Below are positions 1,944 through 16,920 of a stretch of 64,000 nt of DNA, in pieces; positions within the stretch are counted from its first letter, which is position 1; each line of letters begins with the position of its first letter. The translations under genes were made by a program, and so were the position numbers. Source of the DNA: Synechococcus sp. ROS8604 (GTDB taxonomy: Bacteria; Cyanobacteriota; Cyanobacteriia; PCC-6307; Cyanobiaceae); the NCBI RefSeq assembly GCF_014279655.1, contig NZ_CP047946.1:930001-994000 (forward strand), given 5' to 3'. Under the pieces are notes generated by a model. The model searched no databases and was not told where the DNA came from. It saw only the letters and a program-made list of their open reading frames with translations.

Positions 1944-3466
1944 TGCAGCAGTTGTTGCTCGCGGCCAATGATCAACAGCAGCAAGCTGATCGCAAACAGC
2001 AGCCCCGTGAGCACTGCTACAGCCAACATCGTTCCGGCTAGCCCCTGGGTGTAGGCCTCCCGCAGCAGGTGCAGCAGTTGATGAGACGCGGAACCATCAA
2101 GGGAGATCGGGCTATTGCGTAAAAACAAACGAATCTGTTCGTCGACTTGAGGCAGATGCTCCAAGCCAAGGCCTGCGGCTTGCATGCGGCTGTGCAGATC
2201 ATGGAAGCCGAAGCCGCTGATCATGGTTCCGCTGGCGGCGAGCCCAAAAGCAAAGCCCAGCTGGCCGCTGGTGGTACGAAAGGCCAGCACCGATCCAAAG
2301 CAATCCTTTGGGGCTTCCTGGACAAATAAGGCGGATTGGGGCACTGCCACAAAGGCCAGGCCGAGGCCGGCCAGCATCAAGGCTGGCAGCAGCTGCCAAT
2401 AGGGCGTTTGCACCTGCACGATGGCGAACAGGGCTAGGCCGAGCACCAGCGCCACACTGCCGCCCGCCATTAAGACCAAGGTGCGCCGGCCTGGGCCCAT
2501 CCAGCGCCCGGCATAGATCCCGGCCACACCAAAGCAGATCAGGAAGGGCAGCTGAGCCATGGCCACCGCACTGGTGCTGTAGCCCTGGACCAGTTGCCAG
2601 AAGTTGCTGGTTTGCAGCTGCACCACGGCTTGGGCCACATTCCAGCCGATCCCGTTGATCACCGCGGCGGCAAAGAAACCGCGCAGGTAGAGCCGGGGCG
2701 GAAACATCGGTTTTCGGCTGCGTCGCTCCAGGAAGATGTGCAGCACGAACAAGAGCAGTCCACTGCTGGCCGGCAGCCAGAAGCTGGGGCTGCGCAGCCC
2801 TAGGGCTGCGTGGTTGATGCCAAATAGGAACAGCACCATCGCAAGTGCGATGCTCCCAAGGCCAGGGAGGTCGGGCTTGAGGGAGCGATTGCCTGGAATC
2901 GTTGGCAGCAATGCGGGTAAGAGCAGCAGGCTGGCGCTGCAAATCATTGGCACCAACAAAAAAGACAGGCGCCAATGGATCGTGGCCATCCAGCCACCAA
3001 GCAGGGAGCCGCTGATGAAGCCCACCACGATCAGCAGGTTCCAGAGGCCGAGGGCGGCGCTCACGCCAGCGGTTGGCGTCACGAAGCGCACGCTGGCAAA
3101 GGTGCTGGTGAGCACTGAGCCGAGGGCGATGCCGGTGAGGGCACGGCCGAGTAGGAACAGCCCTGCCTCGCCCGCCAGCATTGAAAGAAGATTCCCCACC
3201 ACCGCGAGCAGCAGGGAGGCCGCCAGCACCCTTCGCCGGCCAAAACGGTCGCCGAAAAAGCCCATCGCCAGCACCGATGCGGCTTGGGCCAGGGTCGACA
3301 CGCTGGCGCCGAGGGCCAAGACAGCGCCATGCATCTGCAGGGCATCGCTGGCTTTCACCAAGGCGATATTGGCCACGCTGGGGTCGATCAGCTGCAGGCT
3401 GGCGAGGATGCCCAGATAGGGGATGCAAGCCAGTGATTGCAATTCCCTTAAACTTCCTACTCTCAC
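1928..3466 (-). CDS. MFS transporter, DHA2-like drug or metabolite exporter
   Basis: A 512-residue integral membrane protein with 13-14 predicted hydrophobic segments, typical of the 14-helix DHA2 (EmrB/QacA-like) branch of the major facilitator superfamily. The loop after the second helix carries the MFS motif A form GDRFGRRR at about residues 72-79. Family knowledge predicts proton-driven export across the inner membrane; the substrate cannot be read from sequence. It is divergent from the glucosidase gene downstream on the other strand, about 170 bases away. The N-terminus is short before helix 1, so the start is reasonable. Confidence 0.85.
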   Translation of the reverse strand: MRVGSLRELQSLACIPYLGILASLQLIDPSVANIALVKASDALQMHGAVLALGASVSTLAQAASVLAMGFFGDRFGRRRVLAASLLLAVVGNLLSMLAGEAGLFLLGRALTGIALGSVLTSTFASVRFVTPTAGVSAALGLWNLLIVVGFISGSLLGGWMATIHWRLSFLLVPMICSASLLLLPALLPTIPGNRSLKPDLPGLGSIALAMVLFLFGINHAALGLRSPSFWLPASSGLLLFVLHIFLERRSRKPMFPPRLYLRGFFAAAVINGIGWNVAQAVVQLQTSNFWQLVQGYSTSAVAMAQLPFLICFGVAGIYAGRWMGPGRRTLVLMAGGSVALVLGLALFAIVQVQTPYWQLLPALMLAGLGLAFVAVPQSALFVQEAPKDCFGSVLAFRTTSGQLGFAFGLAASGTMISGFGFHDLHSRMQAAGLGLEHLPQVDEQIRLFLRNSPISLDGSASHQLLHLLREAYTQGLAGTMLAVAVLTGLLFAISLLLLIIGREQQLLHQEGS

Positions 3467-3638
3467 TGGGTTTTCACGCGTTCTTCATCAGGTCTTGGTC
3501 AACGGCCAAAGGGGCTGGCTATTGCTGCCGATGACCCTTTGACGGATGCAGGGGTGAAGGGTTCAGGCGTCTTGCTCCTAGCAAGGCCCTGGCTCTTCTG
3601 GCCAGCTCTGGCAATCTGGGTCCACTTTCGGCCTCTGC

Positions 3639-6140
3639 ATGGCACCGCTCGGACTGTCCGCATTGCGTTCACGGCTGAGCCGCGGCTCATCAGGGAAGGG
3701 TTGGCAACCACCAGAAGCCAGCTGGAGCCGCTCCTTTGGTTTGGGCTGGTCGTCTCCGTTCACGGTGCGCTACGCCAGCAATCTCGACGACGGTCCCTGG
3801 CATGGGATGCCCCTAGGGGGCTTTGGAGCCGGTTGCATTGGCCGCAGCTCCCGTGGCGATTTCAACCTTTGGCACCTCGATGGCGGTGAGCATTGGTACG
3901 GCAGCATCCCTGATTGCCAATTTGCGCTCTGGGAACAGCAAGGCGATCAGGTGCGCGTGCATGCCTTGGCCACAGAACCAAAGCGTGATCACTCCAGGCC
4001 GGAGTCAGGCAAGCCGCTGAGCAGCTGGCAGTGGTATCCCGCCAGCACGGAGGAGAGCAGCACCGGCACCTATGCCGCTCGCTATCCCCTGAGTTGGAAC
4101 CACTACGAAGGGGTGTTTCGTGCCCAGGTGAGTTGTGAGGCGTTCAGCCCGATCCTTCCGGGTGATTACCAACGCAGCAGTTATCCGGTGGCGGTGTTCC
4201 GCTGGACGATCAGCAACCCCACCAACAAGCCCTTAGAGCTGTCGTTGCTGCTGAGTTGGCGCAACACGGTGGGTTGGTTCACCAATACTGATGCCTCGGC
4301 GGAGGTGCACTTCCGTGATGACGGCAGCCCCGAGCACAACTACGCCCCAGCGATTGGAGCTGGCGAGGGCCAGAGCAACCGCTGGATCGATGCCGATGGC
4401 CTAAGCGGGGTGCTGCTCGATGGCAAGCGCTCAACGCCGTTGGCGGAAGGGGAAGGGCAGTGGTGTCTGGCCCTGCCAGACAGGCTGGAGGGTGTGGAGC
4501 TGATGCGCTGCAGCCGCTGGGATCCCAGTGGTGATGGCGCCGAGCTCTGGCAGCCGTTTGCCACGGATGGGGTGATCCCCAACAGCAATAACGATCGCGC
4601 CAGTCGTAAGGGCGAACACGCCAGTGCGGCGATCGCCGTGAAATTCACCCTGGCGCCGGGTGAAACCCGAGAGATTCCGGTGGCGATCAGCTGGGATCTG
4701 CCGGTCACGAGCTTTGCGACGGGCGTGCGCGACCTGCGCCGCTACAGCGATTTTTATGGCGCCGATGGTTGCCAGGCGGCGGCGATTGCGGCAGAAGCAC
4801 TGCGCGATTGGACGTCTTGGCACGAGCAAATCGAAGCTTGGCAAGCGCCGGTGTTGGCGCGTAAGGAGCTCCCCGAGGAGCTGCGCATGGCGCTGTTCAA
4901 CGAGCTCTACGACCTCGCCAGTGGCGGCAGCCTCTGGACGGCCGCCACCTCCAAGGATCCCTACGGCCGCTTCGGGGTGCTGGAGTGCCTCGACTACGCC
5001 TGGTACGAAAGCCTTGATGTGCGTTTGTACGGTTCCTTTGCCCTGCTCCAGCTCTGGCCGGAGCTGGATAAGGCGGTGATTCGCAGCTTTGCCCGAGCGA
5101 TTCCGGCGGCCGATGCCACCCAACGGCCGATCGGTTGGTATTTCACCCAAGGCCGCGGCCGGGTGGAGGCGGACCGCAAGGTGAAAGGGGCCACACCTCA
5201 TGATTTGGGGGCACCAAATGAGGTGCCGTTTGATGCCACCAACTACACCGCCTATCAGGACTGCAATCTCTGGAAAGATCTCGCCAGTGACTACGTGCTG
5301 CAGGTGTGGCGCACGTTCAAATTGGCTCCCACCGGAGAAGACCTCAGTTTTCTGGCGGAGTGCTGGCCTGCGGCAGTGCAGGCCCTGCACTACCTCAAGC
5401 AATTTGATGTGAATGACGATGGCCTGCCCGATAACGGCGGGGCGCCGGATCAAACCTTTGATGATTGGCCGCTCAAGGGGGTGAGTGCCTATTGCGGTGC
5501 GCTCTGGATTGCGGCCCTGGAAGCTGCGTTAGCGATGGCGCAACGGCTGCAGCTGGAGTTGGGATTGGAGACCGGCGATGAGCAGCACACCTTTAGTGGT
5601 TGGCTGGAGCAATCCCGCGCCAATTTTGATGCGCTGCTGTGGAACGGCGAGTACTACGACATCGATGCCGAAAGCGGCACGCCGGTGGTGATGGCCGATC
5701 AGCTTTGCGGTGATTTCTATGCGCGTTTGCTGGAGTTACCGCCGGTGGTGAGTGAGGCCAACAGCCGCAGCACCTTGAAGGCGGTAAAGGAAGCCTGCTT
5801 TGACAACTTTGCTGGTGGATCGCTCGGGGTGGCCAATGGCTTGCGCCGTGATGGCACGCCCTTGGATCCAAATGGCACCCATCCTTTGGAGGTGTGGACG
5901 GGGATCAACTTTGGAATTGCCAGCTATTACCGCTTGATGGGTGAAAGCAAAACCGCAGAAGCGATCTGCTCCGCGGTGGTGACCCAGGTGTATTCAGGCG
6001 GATTGCAATTCCGCACCCCGGAAGCGATCACGGCCGTGAATACCTTCCGGGCTTGCCACTACCTGCGGGCGATGGCGATCTGGGGCCTCTGGGCCACGCA
6101 CACCGATTGGGAACCGATTCCGGGCTCGCAGAGGGGATGA
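3639..6140 (+). CDS. GH116-family beta-glucosidase (GBA2-like)
   Basis: An 833-residue protein matching the bile-acid beta-glucosidase / non-lysosomal glucosylceramidase type, glycoside hydrolase family 116. The N-terminal beta-sandwich begins with the family signature PLGGFGAGCIGRSSRGDF near residues 55-73. The C-terminal (alpha/alpha)6 domain holds the likely nucleophile Glu449 in GVLECLDYAW and the DQTFDDW motif at 604-610, which carries the acid/base aspartate. Both are intact. There is no signal peptide, so it is probably cytoplasmic. The substrate in picocyanobacteria is not known; a glucosylglycerol-like or glucosylated lipid substrate is only a guess. The 3' end abuts a decayed toxin-antitoxin remnant. 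Confidence 0.9.
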   Translation: MAPLGLSALRSRLSRGSSGKGWQPPEASWSRSFGLGWSSPFTVRYASNLDDGPWHGMPLGGFGAGCIGRSSRGDFNLWHLDGGEHWYGSIPDCQFALWEQQGDQVRVHALATEPKRDHSRPESGKPLSSWQWYPASTEESSTGTYAARYPLSWNHYEGVFRAQVSCEAFSPILPGDYQRSSYPVAVFRWTISNPTNKPLELSLLLSWRNTVGWFTNTDASAEVHFRDDGSPEHNYAPAIGAGEGQSNRWIDADGLSGVLLDGKRSTPLAEGEGQWCLALPDRLEGVELMRCSRWDPSGDGAELWQPFATDGVIPNSNNDRASRKGEHASAAIAVKFTLAPGETREIPVAISWDLPVTSFATGVRDLRRYSDFYGADGCQAAAIAAEALRDWTSWHEQIEAWQAPVLARKELPEELRMALFNELYDLASGGSLWTAATSKDPYGRFGVLECLDYAWYESLDVRLYGSFALLQLWPELDKAVIRSFARAIPAADATQRPIGWYFTQGRGRVEADRKVKGATPHDLGAPNEVPFDATNYTAYQDCNLWKDLASDYVLQVWRTFKLAPTGEDLSFLAECWPAAVQALHYLKQFDVNDDGLPDNGGAPDQTFDDWPLKGVSAYCGALWIAALEAALAMAQRLQLELGLETGDEQHTFSGWLEQSRANFDALLWNGEYYDIDAESGTPVVMADQLCGDFYARLLELPPVVSEANSRSTLKAVKEACFDNFAGGSLGVANGLRRDGTPLDPNGTHPLEVWTGINFGIASYYRLMGESKTAEAICSAVVTQVYSGGLQFRTPEAITAVNTFRACHYLRAMAIWGLWATHTDWEPIPGSQRG

Positions 6141-6141
6141 T

Positions 6142-6335
6142 TTGGCTTCGATTGTCTTGACTGAAATGCACAGGCGCATCGATGCCAAGCGCGGCAATGC
6201 CGTGTTGGTGGCGGAAGAAGATTGGAAGGCGATGCAAGAAACTCTTATCTCTCCTCGATTCCCGGCATGCTGGAGTCGATCCTGGAAGGGATGGCAGCAC
6301 CAGAATCCGCGCTCAGTGAGCCCCCTGGCTGGTGA
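6142..6335 (+). pseudogene. Remnant of a YefM/Phd-type antitoxin gene
   Basis: The stretch reads KRGNAVLVAEEDWKAMQETL in one frame, a hallmark of YefM antitoxins, then shifts by one base near 6244-6250. The typical tail IPGMLESILEGMAAPES follows in the second frame, ending at TGA 6333-6335. Restoring one T in the CTTATCT stretch would join ETL to YLSSIPG. The N-terminal DNA-binding part is also damaged: only a few residues precede the conserved core, with no clear start. A toxin remnant follows at once, so this is a dead type II module. Confidence 0.75.
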
Positions 6336-6359
6336 GCTAGCCAGTGCCTCTCCCTCTTA

Positions 6360-6443
6360 ATGAAGCCTTGGTTGGAGATTTCAAGGGTGCTGGCAGACGA
6401 GCAGATCGTGAAGGTGTTGAGGGTTTGGAGTCATGACGCATGA
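6360..6443 (+). pseudogene. C-terminal remnant of a Txe/YoeB/RelE-family toxin
   Basis: An in-frame run of 27 codons ends at TGA 6441-6443 and gives VLADEQIVKVLRVWSHDA, matching the last beta-strands of Txe/YoeB-type mRNA interferases (pattern of a KV-x-x-WSHYE-like ending). The first roughly 60 residues of a normal toxin are missing. It lies directly behind the YefM antitoxin remnant, in the order normal for yefM-yoeB. The ATG at 6360 is probably chance. Confidence 0.65.
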
Positions 6444-6487
6444 GGATTGGTCTGGCCTGCATTCTCTGCACGCCATAGGGTTTGAGC

Positions 6488-6858
6488 ATGCTTGCGACTG
6501 GAACCACAACCAAGACTTCTGTGGCCGCGATCCGAGAGCGGAAACGGGAGGAGCGGATCCAAGCACTCAGAAGCCAAGCCGGCTTGCTGCTTTCTCATTT
6601 TGATGGGTGCAGTCTCTGGTTGTTTGGCTCCTTGGCGCGAGGAGATTGGGATGCGTTTTCTGATGTAGACGTGCTTGCTGTCGGCCGGGATCGGGGATGT
6701 GCTGATGTGCTGATCGATTGGCCGATCAGGTTCTCACCTGCGGGATGGCGGATGACGTGATCGCGCTCACCGACAGGAAGTGGCAGGAGCTGCGCCAGGG
6801 GCATGCCCCCTACTGGCGTGCGATCGCTGCAGATAGCGTGTGCCTCGGCGATCGATGA
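6488..6858 (+). pseudogene. Frameshifted minimal nucleotidyltransferase (MNT-like)
   Basis: The first frame encodes a helical N-terminus and the nucleotidyltransferase motif LFGSLARGDWDAFSDVDV, with the G-S and D-x-D metal-binding residues. It then runs into a TGA near 6759 after a shift close to 6720. The next frame continues with plausible family sequence (VLTCGMADDVIALTDRKW to the end LGDR, stop 6856-6858). Such proteins often pair with HEPN partners in type VII toxin-antitoxin systems. An ATG overlapping the stop (ATGA) begins a 16-codon ORF that dies quickly, perhaps the lost partner. A sequencing error is possible, but neighbours are decayed too. Confidence 0.7.
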
Positions 6859-13531: not shown

Positions 13532-14649
13532 TGCAAACCGGCTGCAACCGCTGGACTCCTTGGATGCGTCGGGCGCTGCAATTAGCAGCCTTGGCGGACG
13601 GCCAAACAAGCCCCAACCCCTTGGTGGGGGCAGTGGTTCTTGACGCGCAAGGAGCCTTGGTGGGCGAAGGCTTTCACGCCAAGGCAGGACAAGCCCATGC
13701 CGAGGTTGGTGCGCTTGCTCAAGCTGGCTCTCGTGCGAACGGAGGCACGATCATTGTCACGTTGGAGCCCTGCTGTCATCAGGGCCGCACCCCCCCCTGT
13801 GCGCAGGCGGTGATTGCTGCTGGCATTCAGCGCGTTGTTGTGGCCCTTACAGATCCTGATCCACGCGTGGCCGGTGGTGGCATTCAGCGTTTAAGAGATG
13901 CTGGATTGGAGGTGATCGCAGGGGTGATGGAGGCAGAAGCGGCCCAACAAAACCGAGCCTTCGTCCATCGCGTTCAAACGGGTCGTCCCTGGGGACTTCT
14001 CAAATGGGCGATGAGTTTGGATGGTCGCACTGCCCTGCCGAATGGCGAAAGTCAGTGGATTAGTGCTCCTCCAGCTCGCGCTTGGGTGCATCAGCTACGC
14101 GCCAGTTGTGATGCGGTGATTGTGGGAGGTGGCACCGTGCGCACCGATAACCCCCTGCTCACCAGCCGCGGTCGTCGCTTGCCCGAACCCTTGCGGGTGG
14201 TGCTGAGCCGCAGCCTTGACTTGCCTGCCCAGGCCCAGCTTTGGGATACAAGCCTGGCGGCAACCCTTCTCGCCCATGGGCCAGGTAGCGCTGATCGCTC
14301 TCTGCCTGAGGGCCCGGAGCCTCTTGAGCTTTTGGCCAGCGAGCCCTTGGACCTTCTGCAAGTCTTGTCTCAAAGAGGTTGCAACCGGGTGCTCTGGGAA
14401 TGCGGCCCGGCCTTGGCAGCAACAGCTCTACAGCAAGGGTGTGTGCAGGAGTTGGCGGTGGTGATTGCCCCCAAGCTTCTTGGAGGCACATTGGCGCGAA
14501 CGCCCCTTGGTGACCTGGGTTTCTCGGCGATGGATCAGGTGATTCCTGTTTCCGGGCTTTCGGCAGAGCGCCTGGGCCGTGATGTGTTGCTGCAATCTTT
14601 AATGCCTGCCCTTGGACCAGCTGTTCACGGGGTATCCCAAAGCGATTGA
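13531..14649 (+). CDS. ribD: Bifunctional riboflavin biosynthesis deaminase/reductase RibD
   Basis: About 372 residues from ATG 13531. The N-terminal cytidine-deaminase-like domain has the zinc motif HAE at 56-58 and PCCHQGRTPPC at 80-90, with Glu58 as proton shuttle. The C-terminal reductase domain (about 155-372) begins PWGLLKWAMSLDGRTA and has the NADPH-binding-type VIVGGGTVRTDNP. It carries out steps two and three of riboflavin synthesis from GTP: deamination of the pyrimidine and reduction of the ribose side chain. An in-frame start 11 codons earlier exists, but ATG 13531 overlaps the preceding stop and is preferred. Confidence 0.93.
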   Translation: MQTGCNRWTPWMRRALQLAALADGQTSPNPLVGAVVLDAQGALVGEGFHAKAGQAHAEVGALAQAGSRANGGTIIVTLEPCCHQGRTPPCAQAVIAAGIQRVVVALTDPDPRVAGGGIQRLRDAGLEVIAGVMEAEAAQQNRAFVHRVQTGRPWGLLKWAMSLDGRTALPNGESQWISAPPARAWVHQLRASCDAVIVGGGTVRTDNPLLTSRGRRLPEPLRVVLSRSLDLPAQAQLWDTSLAATLLAHGPGSADRSLPEGPEPLELLASEPLDLLQVLSQRGCNRVLWECGPALAATALQQGCVQELAVVIAPKLLGGTLARTPLGDLGFSAMDQVIPVSGLSAERLGRDVLLQSLMPALGPAVHGVSQSD

Positions 14650-14919
14650 AGCGTCCAGGGACCGCCCTCTATCACCCAAAACGCTCCATTCACCAGCCGG
14701 ACGTTTTGATCGATCGCTTCAATCTTTTGCAACTCGCTGGTGCTGAGTTTGATCTCCGCCGCTTGAAAGTTTTCAAGCAACCGTGACGGTTTAACGGATT
14801 TAGGAATCGCTGAGATGCCCCGTTGCATATCCCAGGCCAGCACCACTTGCGCCGGAGAACAGCCTCGCGTTTCCGCAATCGAGCGAATGACGGGATTTTC
14901 GAGCACAACCGGCGCATCC
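14625..14919 (-). pseudogene. C-terminal fragment of an aldo/keto reductase gene
   Basis: About 98 codons ending at the stop 14625-14627 encode the last quarter of an aldose-reductase-type AKR: ENPVIRSIAE, AQVVLAWDMQRG, the NADP-binding IPKSVKPSRLLENF, and the tail GGPWTLQSLWD. Homology stops abruptly near 14919, where a piece of lhr begins on the other strand. The same-strand N-terminal piece of an AKR of the same type lies at 16741-16920, so one gene was split. The frame stays open further upstream only as antisense of lhr, which is not AKR sequence. The 3' end overlaps ribD by 25 bases. Confidence 0.8.
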
Positions 14920-14924
14920 TTCAC

Positions 14925-15695
14925 ATGCGGGCCGAAGTGGATCGGGCCAGTCGCGGCGACCTCGACACCCCGGAGCTGCAAGCTCTCCTGCCCTTGCTGG
15001 AGCGTCAGCAGGACCTCTCTGTGTTGCCATGCATCGATCAGCTGCTGGTGGAAACCTGCACCACGAAAGAAGGGAGCCATCTCTACACCTATCCCTTCGA
15101 AAGCCGTTTCGTACACGAGGGAATTGGCTTTCTCTGGGCCGCTCGGCTCACCCAGCTGGAACGAGGCACGATCACTGTGTCGGTGAACGACTACGGCTTC
15201 GAGCTGCTTGCACCCAAGGGCTACCCCATGGCTGAGCTGCTGGAAGACCATCGCGATCAACTGTTGGCGGCTGATGCTTTGGAACGGGATCTGGAACAGG
15301 CCCTCAACCTCTCCGAACTGCGACGCTGCCGTTTCAGAGCGATCGCTCAGATCGCTGGGCTGATGAACCGTGGCTTTCCTGGTTCCAGCAAAAGCACCGG
15401 ACAACTCCAGATCAGTGCTTCGCTGCTGTTTGATGTGTTCGAGCGTCACGAAGCCGGCAATTTGCTGCTGCAGCAAGCACGCCGTGAAGTGCTGGAGGAG
15501 CAACTCGAACTCTCGAGGCTGCGGGCGGCGCTCGAACGCGCCCAGGCTCAGACGTTCCTCCACATCGAAACACCACGGCCAGGACCGTTGGCTTTCCCGC
15601 TGCTGGTGGAACGGCTCAACAACCGAATGAGCAACGAAACCGTGCTGGAACGGGTGATGCGGATGAAAGCGGAGGCGGAACGCAATGAACGCTGA
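14925..15695 (+). pseudogene. C-terminal fragment of Lhr-type DEXH helicase
   Basis: About 256 codons match the C-terminal domains of ligase-associated Lhr helicases: ETCTTKEGSHLYTYPFE, SVNDYGFELL, GFPGSSKSTGQLQ, QARREVLEEQLE and the end LAFPLLVERL. The whole N-terminal ATPase core (about 550 residues, Walker motifs) is absent. The sequence starts exactly where the AKR fragment on the other strand ends. It cannot act as a helicase. It was probably carried in beside the methylglyoxal synthase gene that follows in the same direction. Confidence 0.8.
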
Positions 15696-15769
15696 ACGTG
15701 CGCCTCGGTACGGCAGGCACCTGAAGGCATGACTACGTTTCAGCCAAAACGCATCGAGGCGTACAGGAC

Positions 15770-16666
15770 ATGGGCACCGAAGACCTCACCAACTTTTTGA
15801 TCGCCAGCAGCGAGCTTCCCAAGACTTTCTCAGAGGATGAGATTGCAGCCTTCGCCGCCCAGCTGCATGTGGAGGAGCACCCGGCTGGTGAACTGTTGAT
15901 GAAGGAGAGCACGCCCGCCTGCAGCTTGATGTTGCTGTTGTCAGGAGAGGTGCGGCGCATGCTTGCCGATGTGGAACTGGACCTGCTCCGTGCCGGTGAA
16001 TTCTTCGGTGAAAGCATGTTCACCGACGAAGGCAGTCACTTCGCCAATGTGGTCACAACGCAGCCGGTGACCATTGCACGCCTTTCGGTCGACCACTACG
16101 GATCGCTGGTGGAAACGGCACCGATCACCGCGAGGAAGTTCAAGCAATACTTCTCAGCCATCCACATGCAGGAGGTTTACGAGAAGCAGGGACTGAGTTT
16201 TGTGGACCAGCGCAGCTACCTCGGCCTGGTGGCCCACAACGAGATGAAGGAAAGCCTGATGGGATTCGCCGGCATCCATGCCGACAAACTCAAGCGTTTT
16301 CACCTGGTGGCGACTGGCACCACTGGCATCAAGTTGTATCAGGAAGTGGGGCTGATGATTTCCAAAAAGCTGGCCTCAGGCCCGCTTGGCGGTGATCAGG
16401 CGATCGGGAAGATGATCTCGGAAAACAACATCAAAGGTTTGATCTTCTTCCGTGATCCCCTCTCGGCCCATCCCCATCACGCTGATATCGAAGCCTTGGG
16501 GCGTTTGTGTGATGTGTATCAGGTCCCGATGGCCACCAATCCCGGTGGAGCAGCTGCCCTGCTCAACTACCTGCTGATCGACCATCCAGAGGAACCGGCC
16601 ATCCCCAACCGCGTGTTGGAGAAGTACAAAAACGCACAGAAGAAAGTTGTGGCACAACCGGCGTGA
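15770..16666 (+). CDS. Fusion of a cyclic-nucleotide-binding-like domain to methylglyoxal synthase
   Basis: 298 residues. Residues about 20-130 form a CRP-like cNMP-binding fold (LLLSGEVRRML, LRAGEFFGESMF). Residues about 150-270 match methylglyoxal synthase: VAHNEMK (His156, Lys160), ATGTTG, GPLGGDQ (Asp209), IFFRDPLSAHPHHAD (His236, Asp239). These correspond to E. coli His19, Lys23, Asp71, His98 and Asp101, so the enzyme, which turns dihydroxyacetone phosphate into methylglyoxal and phosphate, looks competent. E. coli-type proteins lack the N-terminal domain. The Arg that binds the cyclic phosphate is not seen (GSHFANV instead of a PRAA-like stretch), so another ligand, or none, is possible. 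The gene sits inside a split aldo/keto reductase locus. Confidence 0.85.
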   Translation: MGTEDLTNFLIASSELPKTFSEDEIAAFAAQLHVEEHPAGELLMKESTPACSLMLLLSGEVRRMLADVELDLLRAGEFFGESMFTDEGSHFANVVTTQPVTIARLSVDHYGSLVETAPITARKFKQYFSAIHMQEVYEKQGLSFVDQRSYLGLVAHNEMKESLMGFAGIHADKLKRFHLVATGTTGIKLYQEVGLMISKKLASGPLGGDQAIGKMISENNIKGLIFFRDPLSAHPHHADIEALGRLCDVYQVPMATNPGGAAALLNYLLIDHPEEPAIPNRVLEKYKNAQKKVVAQPA

Positions 16667-16740
16667 TGATTTAAATCGTTCGCAATCGACAGGATGTGAT
16701 CCAGAGCTTGTCTCTTGTGACCTCACGATTGTGAATGGCG

Positions 16741-16920
16741 TCAGAAAATAGCGTCGCCAACTTCCTTTTCATTGCCATAAATGCTCGCACAATCAATGTG
16801 GCGATATCCAATCTTGATGGCTTCCCGTACGGCCGTATAAACCTGTCTTGATTCGGATTTCCAGATGCCCAGACCCAAGAGCGGCATTCTGTTACCGTTG
16901 CTTAGGCAGGCGTATTGCAT
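16741..16920 (-). pseudogene. N-terminal fragment of an aldo/keto reductase gene
   Basis: 59 codons from ATG 16918-16920 to TGA 16741-16743. It encodes the first beta-strands of an [16 protein letters not shown] and [14 protein letters not shown], with the catalytic Asp and Tyr of the family. It stops at GDAIF, where a normal protein continues for about 260 residues. With the 14625-14919 fragment on the same strand it accounts for both ends of one gene; the middle, about 160 codons, is missing. Confidence 0.8.

Follow-up and report, generated by a model that had tools for sequence, protein, structure and literature searches.

In Synechococcus sp. ROS8604, an open reading frame at 15770-16666 of the window (the whole 64,000-nucleotide stretch of DNA that was analysed) encodes a protein in which a methylglyoxal synthase (MGS) domain comes after a cyclic-nucleotide-binding (CNB) domain. 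We lean modestly toward a reading in which the proteins of this family are MGSs controlled by cAMP or cGMP, and in which the focal copy, having been transferred, most likely works without cyclic-nucleotide control. Catalytic activity, the identity of the ligand, the direction of regulation, and the decoupling of the focal copy are what we infer from the evidence below. The parts of the gene are as follows.

15770..16666, + strand: CNB-MGS fusion coding sequence, 298 aa, ATG start, recognised with Pfam, NCBIfam, AlphaFold2, and Foldseek; by the listing of open reading frames, its stop codon lies outside or at the end of this interval
15770..16159, + strand: CNB domain, about residues 1-130, from PF00027, the predicted CNB fold, and Foldseek matches to HCN, PKG, and CRP
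16007..16051, + strand: phosphate-binding cassette, residues 80-94, placed by alignments
16121..16195, + strand: long helix between the sensor and the enzyme, residues 118-142, from DSSP on the AlphaFold2 model, in which confidence in this helix drops past about residue 130
16208..16606, + strand: MGS domain, residues 147-279, from NF003559 (144.8 bits) and alignment with E. coli MgsA

The initial annotation had proposed a CRP-like sensor placed before a methylglyoxal synthase, and the profile searches, the structure prediction, and the fold search agree with it. PF00027 (CNB) matches residues 36-115 at 46.3 bits (cut-off 27.5), PF02142 (MGS) matches residues 175-256 at 49.2 bits (cut-off 24.1), and the NCBIfam model NF003559, methylglyoxal synthase, exceeds its cut-off of 84 over residues 147-279; TIGR00160 reaches 135.6 bits, below its cut-off of 146.9. 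Structure prediction, which had been suggested as a check on the sensor, returns a CNB fold: the AlphaFold2 model has a mean pLDDT of 82, with residues 1-130 mostly at 83-96, and confidence in the MGS fold is lower in places than in the well-predicted CNB fold. Since the pTM is 0.49, the placement of the two domains relative to one another in the model is unreliable. A Foldseek search with the model finds MGS structures first (highest TM by target, 0.91), and the best 50 matches include the CNB domains of HCN, PKG, and CRP.

The fusion is not confined to this genome. An alignment assembled from the relatives in a contig scan with 22 matches and from the matches of genome searches contains 24 full-length fusions, in which both domains can be aligned and which are 41-82% identical to the focal protein. 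The labelled hosts are Synechococcus, Trichodesmium, Verrucomicrobiota, Myxococcota, Pseudomonadota, Latescibacterota, Gemmatimonadota, and Bacteroidota, and outside the picocyanobacteria and Trichodesmium the members are mostly marine metagenome-assembled genomes (MAGs) of other phyla; many members of the family are MAGs, so that taxon labels may be wrong. One contig labelled Crocinitomicaceae (L063) has genes that cluster with Synechococcus island genes and is probably mis-binned. The distribution is sporadic: 10 of 201 genomes in the taxonomic family of the focal genome carry the fusion (two of the ten in a divergent form), and among 289 genomes from the phylum of the genome with locus L071, the only match over both domains is that genome's own. 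Viral carriage was considered and dropped, as the viral contigs searched with the fusion as query gave no relative. A single origin for all CNB-MGS proteins was likewise rejected, because the MGS tree places L055/L056 and L059/L060 apart from the main group, although that group has weak support as a single clade (56/50) and the outliers sit on long branches. Of these outlying proteins, L055, L056, and L059 have lost the catalytic motifs (the CNB score of L055 is also below the Pfam cut-off), and L060 keeps GGDQ and has TTAHTG in place of ATGTTG. Two genomes of family f7 encode an FHA domain (PF00498 in L058) together with an MGS-like domain lacking the catalytic motifs (L058 and L061).

The sensor cassette of the focal protein reads G80-E81-S-M-F-T-D-E-G-S-H90-F-A-N-V, and His90 (codon 16037-16039) occupies the position of the phosphate-binding Arg of PKG and of most relatives; the suspicion that this Arg was missing is thus borne out in both the PKG and the family alignments. 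By a count of alignment rows, the cassette Arg is kept in 18 of the 24 full-length members, including every non-picocyanobacterial one. The other six are all picocyanobacterial, with His in the focal protein, G186, L066, and L067, Ser in G162, and Gln in G123. They lie at three places on the MGS tree (focal/G186/G162, L066/L067, and G123), and L065, the sister of G123, has the Arg. Judged from the alignment, then, the Arg has been lost, and among the 24 members this loss is confined to picocyanobacteria.

Further evidence on the ligand comes from gene neighbourhoods. CHASE2-class III cyclases, two of them scanned with Pfam and the others assigned by sequence cluster and a PF00211 search, are present in 11 fusion loci, 12 bp to 6 kb from the gene. 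The nearest are at 12 bp (L065), 20 bp (G004), and 24 bp (G061); one stands 726 bp from the divergent fusion of G062, and in L063, L066, L067, L077, L080, G101, and G123 the distance is 2.8-5.9 kb. The cyclases nearest to the fusion face it in convergent orientation and do not share one operon with it. Several fusion neighbourhoods also encode regulators of the CRP type, an MscS channel with a CNB domain (CNB-MscS), a FecR protein, and a protein consisting of a lone CNB domain. Other neighbouring genes were noted in passing: a phosphofructokinase gene (L075, 9390-10712, - strand; likewise, by sequence cluster, in L063, L065, G004, and G061), and a gene whose product combines a class V aminotransferase domain with two stretches of CNB type (L078, 2185-5004, - strand). 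L088 contains, at 2423-6583, five 226-aa open reading frames of one sequence cluster whose starts are 870 bp apart. Across the 201 genomes, PF00211 is found in 9 of the 10 with a fusion versus 76 of the 191 others (Fisher P 0.002), and in 7 of 8 when only canonical fusions are counted (Fisher P 0.011), values that are optimistic because the genomes are related. Furthermore, since the cyclase island also holds unrelated genes, the linkage of cyclase and fusion is an association.

Because the pocket of the family is mostly canonical, with its Arg, and because a class III cyclase is often encoded nearby, the ancestral ligand of the family was probably cAMP or cGMP. Methylglyoxal synthase is restrained by phosphate. 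In the model that we favour for the family, a class III cyclase would make cAMP or cGMP, which would be the ligand of the N-terminal CNB domain; a shift of the interdomain helix would then alter the rate at which the MGS domain converts dihydroxyacetone phosphate to methylglyoxal and phosphate.

The focal genome provides a different setting. Profile searches of the whole genome with PF00211 (class III cyclase) and GGDEF, the two models to which the cyclase negatives apply, gave no match. The genome encodes glyoxalase I and five CNB domains, including that of the fusion; no Arg cassette was seen when the other four CNB sequences were read by eye, and Pfam assigns two of these four proteins, L120 and L123, to the CRP family of regulators. 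Thus, with the pocket Arg lost and no class III cyclase found in the genome, the focal enzyme would run without cyclic-nucleotide control. A simple rule that loss of the Arg follows loss of the cyclase was rejected. In L066, L067, L077, L080, and G123, a cyclase lies no more than about 3 kb from the fusion, but the Arg is absent (as in L066, L067, and G123) or the reading frame is broken. In addition, G186, G162, and G112 have cyclases elsewhere in their genomes, so the Arg loss in G186 and G162 is not a sequel of cyclase loss.

The surroundings of the focal gene suggest how it came to be there. By blastn comparison with L096, L098, and L100, a foreign segment of about 1.77 kb stands where the middle of an aldo/keto reductase gene used to be, as listed below.

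14625..14924, - strand: C-terminal remnant of the interrupted aldo/keto reductase
14925..16691 (approximate): foreign segment, about 1.77 kb, replacing the middle of the reductase
14925..15695, + strand: Lhr-type helicase gene, 3' end, accompanying the fusion, 81% identical to the G162 protein
16741..16920, - strand: N-terminal remnant of the interrupted aldo/keto reductase

About 430 bp of the reductase middle is missing in the window, and both ends of the gene flank 14925-16691. An intact reductase gene stands at the matching place in the same-genus genomes G555, G559, and G563, and PF00248 spans the full length of the intact reductase in L098. The helicase fragment comprises the last ~257 codons of the gene. 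A full-length Lhr-type helicase encoded elsewhere in the focal genome is 68% identical to the G162 protein versus the 81% of the fragment, and an Lhr-type helicase gene adjoins the fusion upstream in L062, G162, and G112. The greater similarity of the fragment and the adjacency of the two genes in relatives point to a lineage like G162/G186 as the most likely donor of the segment. The focal gene would therefore have been transferred from a lineage related to G186/G162.

Whether the sensor still serves some purpose can be approached through its rate of change. Between the focal gene and that of G186, its nearest relative, Nei-Gojobori point estimates of dN/dS are 0.03 for the MGS part and 0.22 for the CNB part (dS is saturated in several other pairs), and identity to G162 is 33% for the CNB domain and 83% for the MGS domain. 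These values indicate that the enzyme is strongly kept and the sensor less so; even so, a value of 0.22 means that the focal CNB domain remains under constraint, consistent with a structural or sensory role that has been retained. The fusion gene of G112 (L087) is broken within the CNB part and has an MGS part that is open and retains the motifs, and the L080 fusion lies in two frames in a single-cell assembly, possibly through sequencing error.

From the sequence, the focal sensor is probably either decoupled from cyclic nucleotides or retuned. The latter was in essence the initial interpretation, which is right about the fusion, the conservation of the MGS domain, and the absence of the Arg; its suggestion of another ligand is not established, and the pocket of the family as a whole is mostly canonical. 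A focal CNB domain that responds to a different small ligand, such as a nucleoside, a non-canonical nucleotide, or a metabolite, and still controls methylglyoxal formation, seems unlikely to us but deserves some weight. A dN/dS well below 1 and a domain predicted to be intact are consistent with it, and non-canonical CNB domains can sense other ligands, for example in trypanosome PKA (PMC10959531) and in a survey of CNB domains (PMC2246266). However, the CNB domain diverges much faster than the MGS domain, and the broken genes of G112 and L080 suggest less need for a sensor. As neither PF00211 nor GGDEF is found in the focal genome, a new ligand is no more likely in this copy than a loss of control by ligands.

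A further possibility, that the CNB domain is a ligand-free structural or oligomerisation element in every member, would accommodate the members that have no Arg and keep a conserved MGS domain, but it is quite improbable given the 18 members with the cassette Arg and the frequent proximity of the gene to cyclases.

Decoupling from cyclic nucleotides, the reading preferred here, supposes that the enzyme itself works. In E. coli numbering, H19, D71, H98, and D101 are the catalytic residues of MgsA. They correspond to H156, D209, H236, and D239 of the focal protein. Alignment with the E. coli reference, a full-length match to PDB 1b93, shows that the equivalents of H19, K23 (K160), D71, D91 (D229), H98, and D101 are kept, together with the ATGTTG (181-186) and SGPxGGDQ loops, the latter as SGPLGGDQ (203-210). 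The claim that all key residues are present holds for these positions and both loops but not for Asp20, which is Asn157 in the focal protein and Asn in all 24 full-length members; the other MGS motif residues are invariant in all 24. On this basis, the focal protein is probably an active MGS. That the MGS domain is instead catalytically dead, leaving only a sensor or scaffold, is very unlikely: the universal Asn and the related MGS-like domains without catalytic motifs (L055, L056, L058, L059, and L061) would fit, but the invariance of the remaining motif residues and the dN/dS of 0.03 argue for a working enzyme, and an MGS-DAGK protein (L037) also has Asn at the Asp20 position.

The fusion resembles several known systems in part. 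With the MgsA proteins of E. coli (1b93), Thermus (2xw6), and B. subtilis (6f2c) it shares the fold, the catalytic motifs, and the above-threshold NF003559 match, but the MGS chains of the PDB have 126-178 aa and no CNB domain, and the fusion has Asn for Asp20. The cyanobacterial two-domain MGS (the L035 type; Synechocystis Sll0036, PMC11897720) likewise joins a cyanobacterial MGS to an extra domain; there, however, the addition resembles a kinase (DAGK_cat plus YegS_C in L035) and sits at the C terminus, and the proteins form a separate group on the MGS tree. The fold and the spacing of the phosphate cassette are those of the CNB domains of CRP, PKA/PKG, and HCN, from which the focal copy differs in having His for Arg and a metabolic enzyme as its output. 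Lastly, marine picocyanobacteria have a cAMP island, Syn_GI122, in which cyclases lie near CRP or a cAMP-regulated MscS (Dore et al. 2020, PMC7522525). In several relatives the fusion is surrounded by genes of the kinds that make up this island (cyclase, CRP-type, and CNB-MscS), but the focal copy is not part of a cluster of this type, and PF00211 has no match anywhere in its genome. The word "methylglyoxal" does not appear in the main text of the paper on the island. Nor does it appear in the text of the CNB survey (PMC2246266). A search of open-access literature found no paper joining methylglyoxal synthase with a CNB domain. The initial remark that no described example was known therefore still stands, and as far as searched, the CNB-MGS fusion is undescribed.

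If the reading of the family is true, a second messenger could act on the enzyme itself, and in marine phytoplankton cAMP or cGMP signalling would be tied to the toxic route around lower glycolysis. Because members with and without the Arg occur naturally, this idea is directly testable, and the focal copy would represent a case of such an enzyme moved away from its signalling setting.
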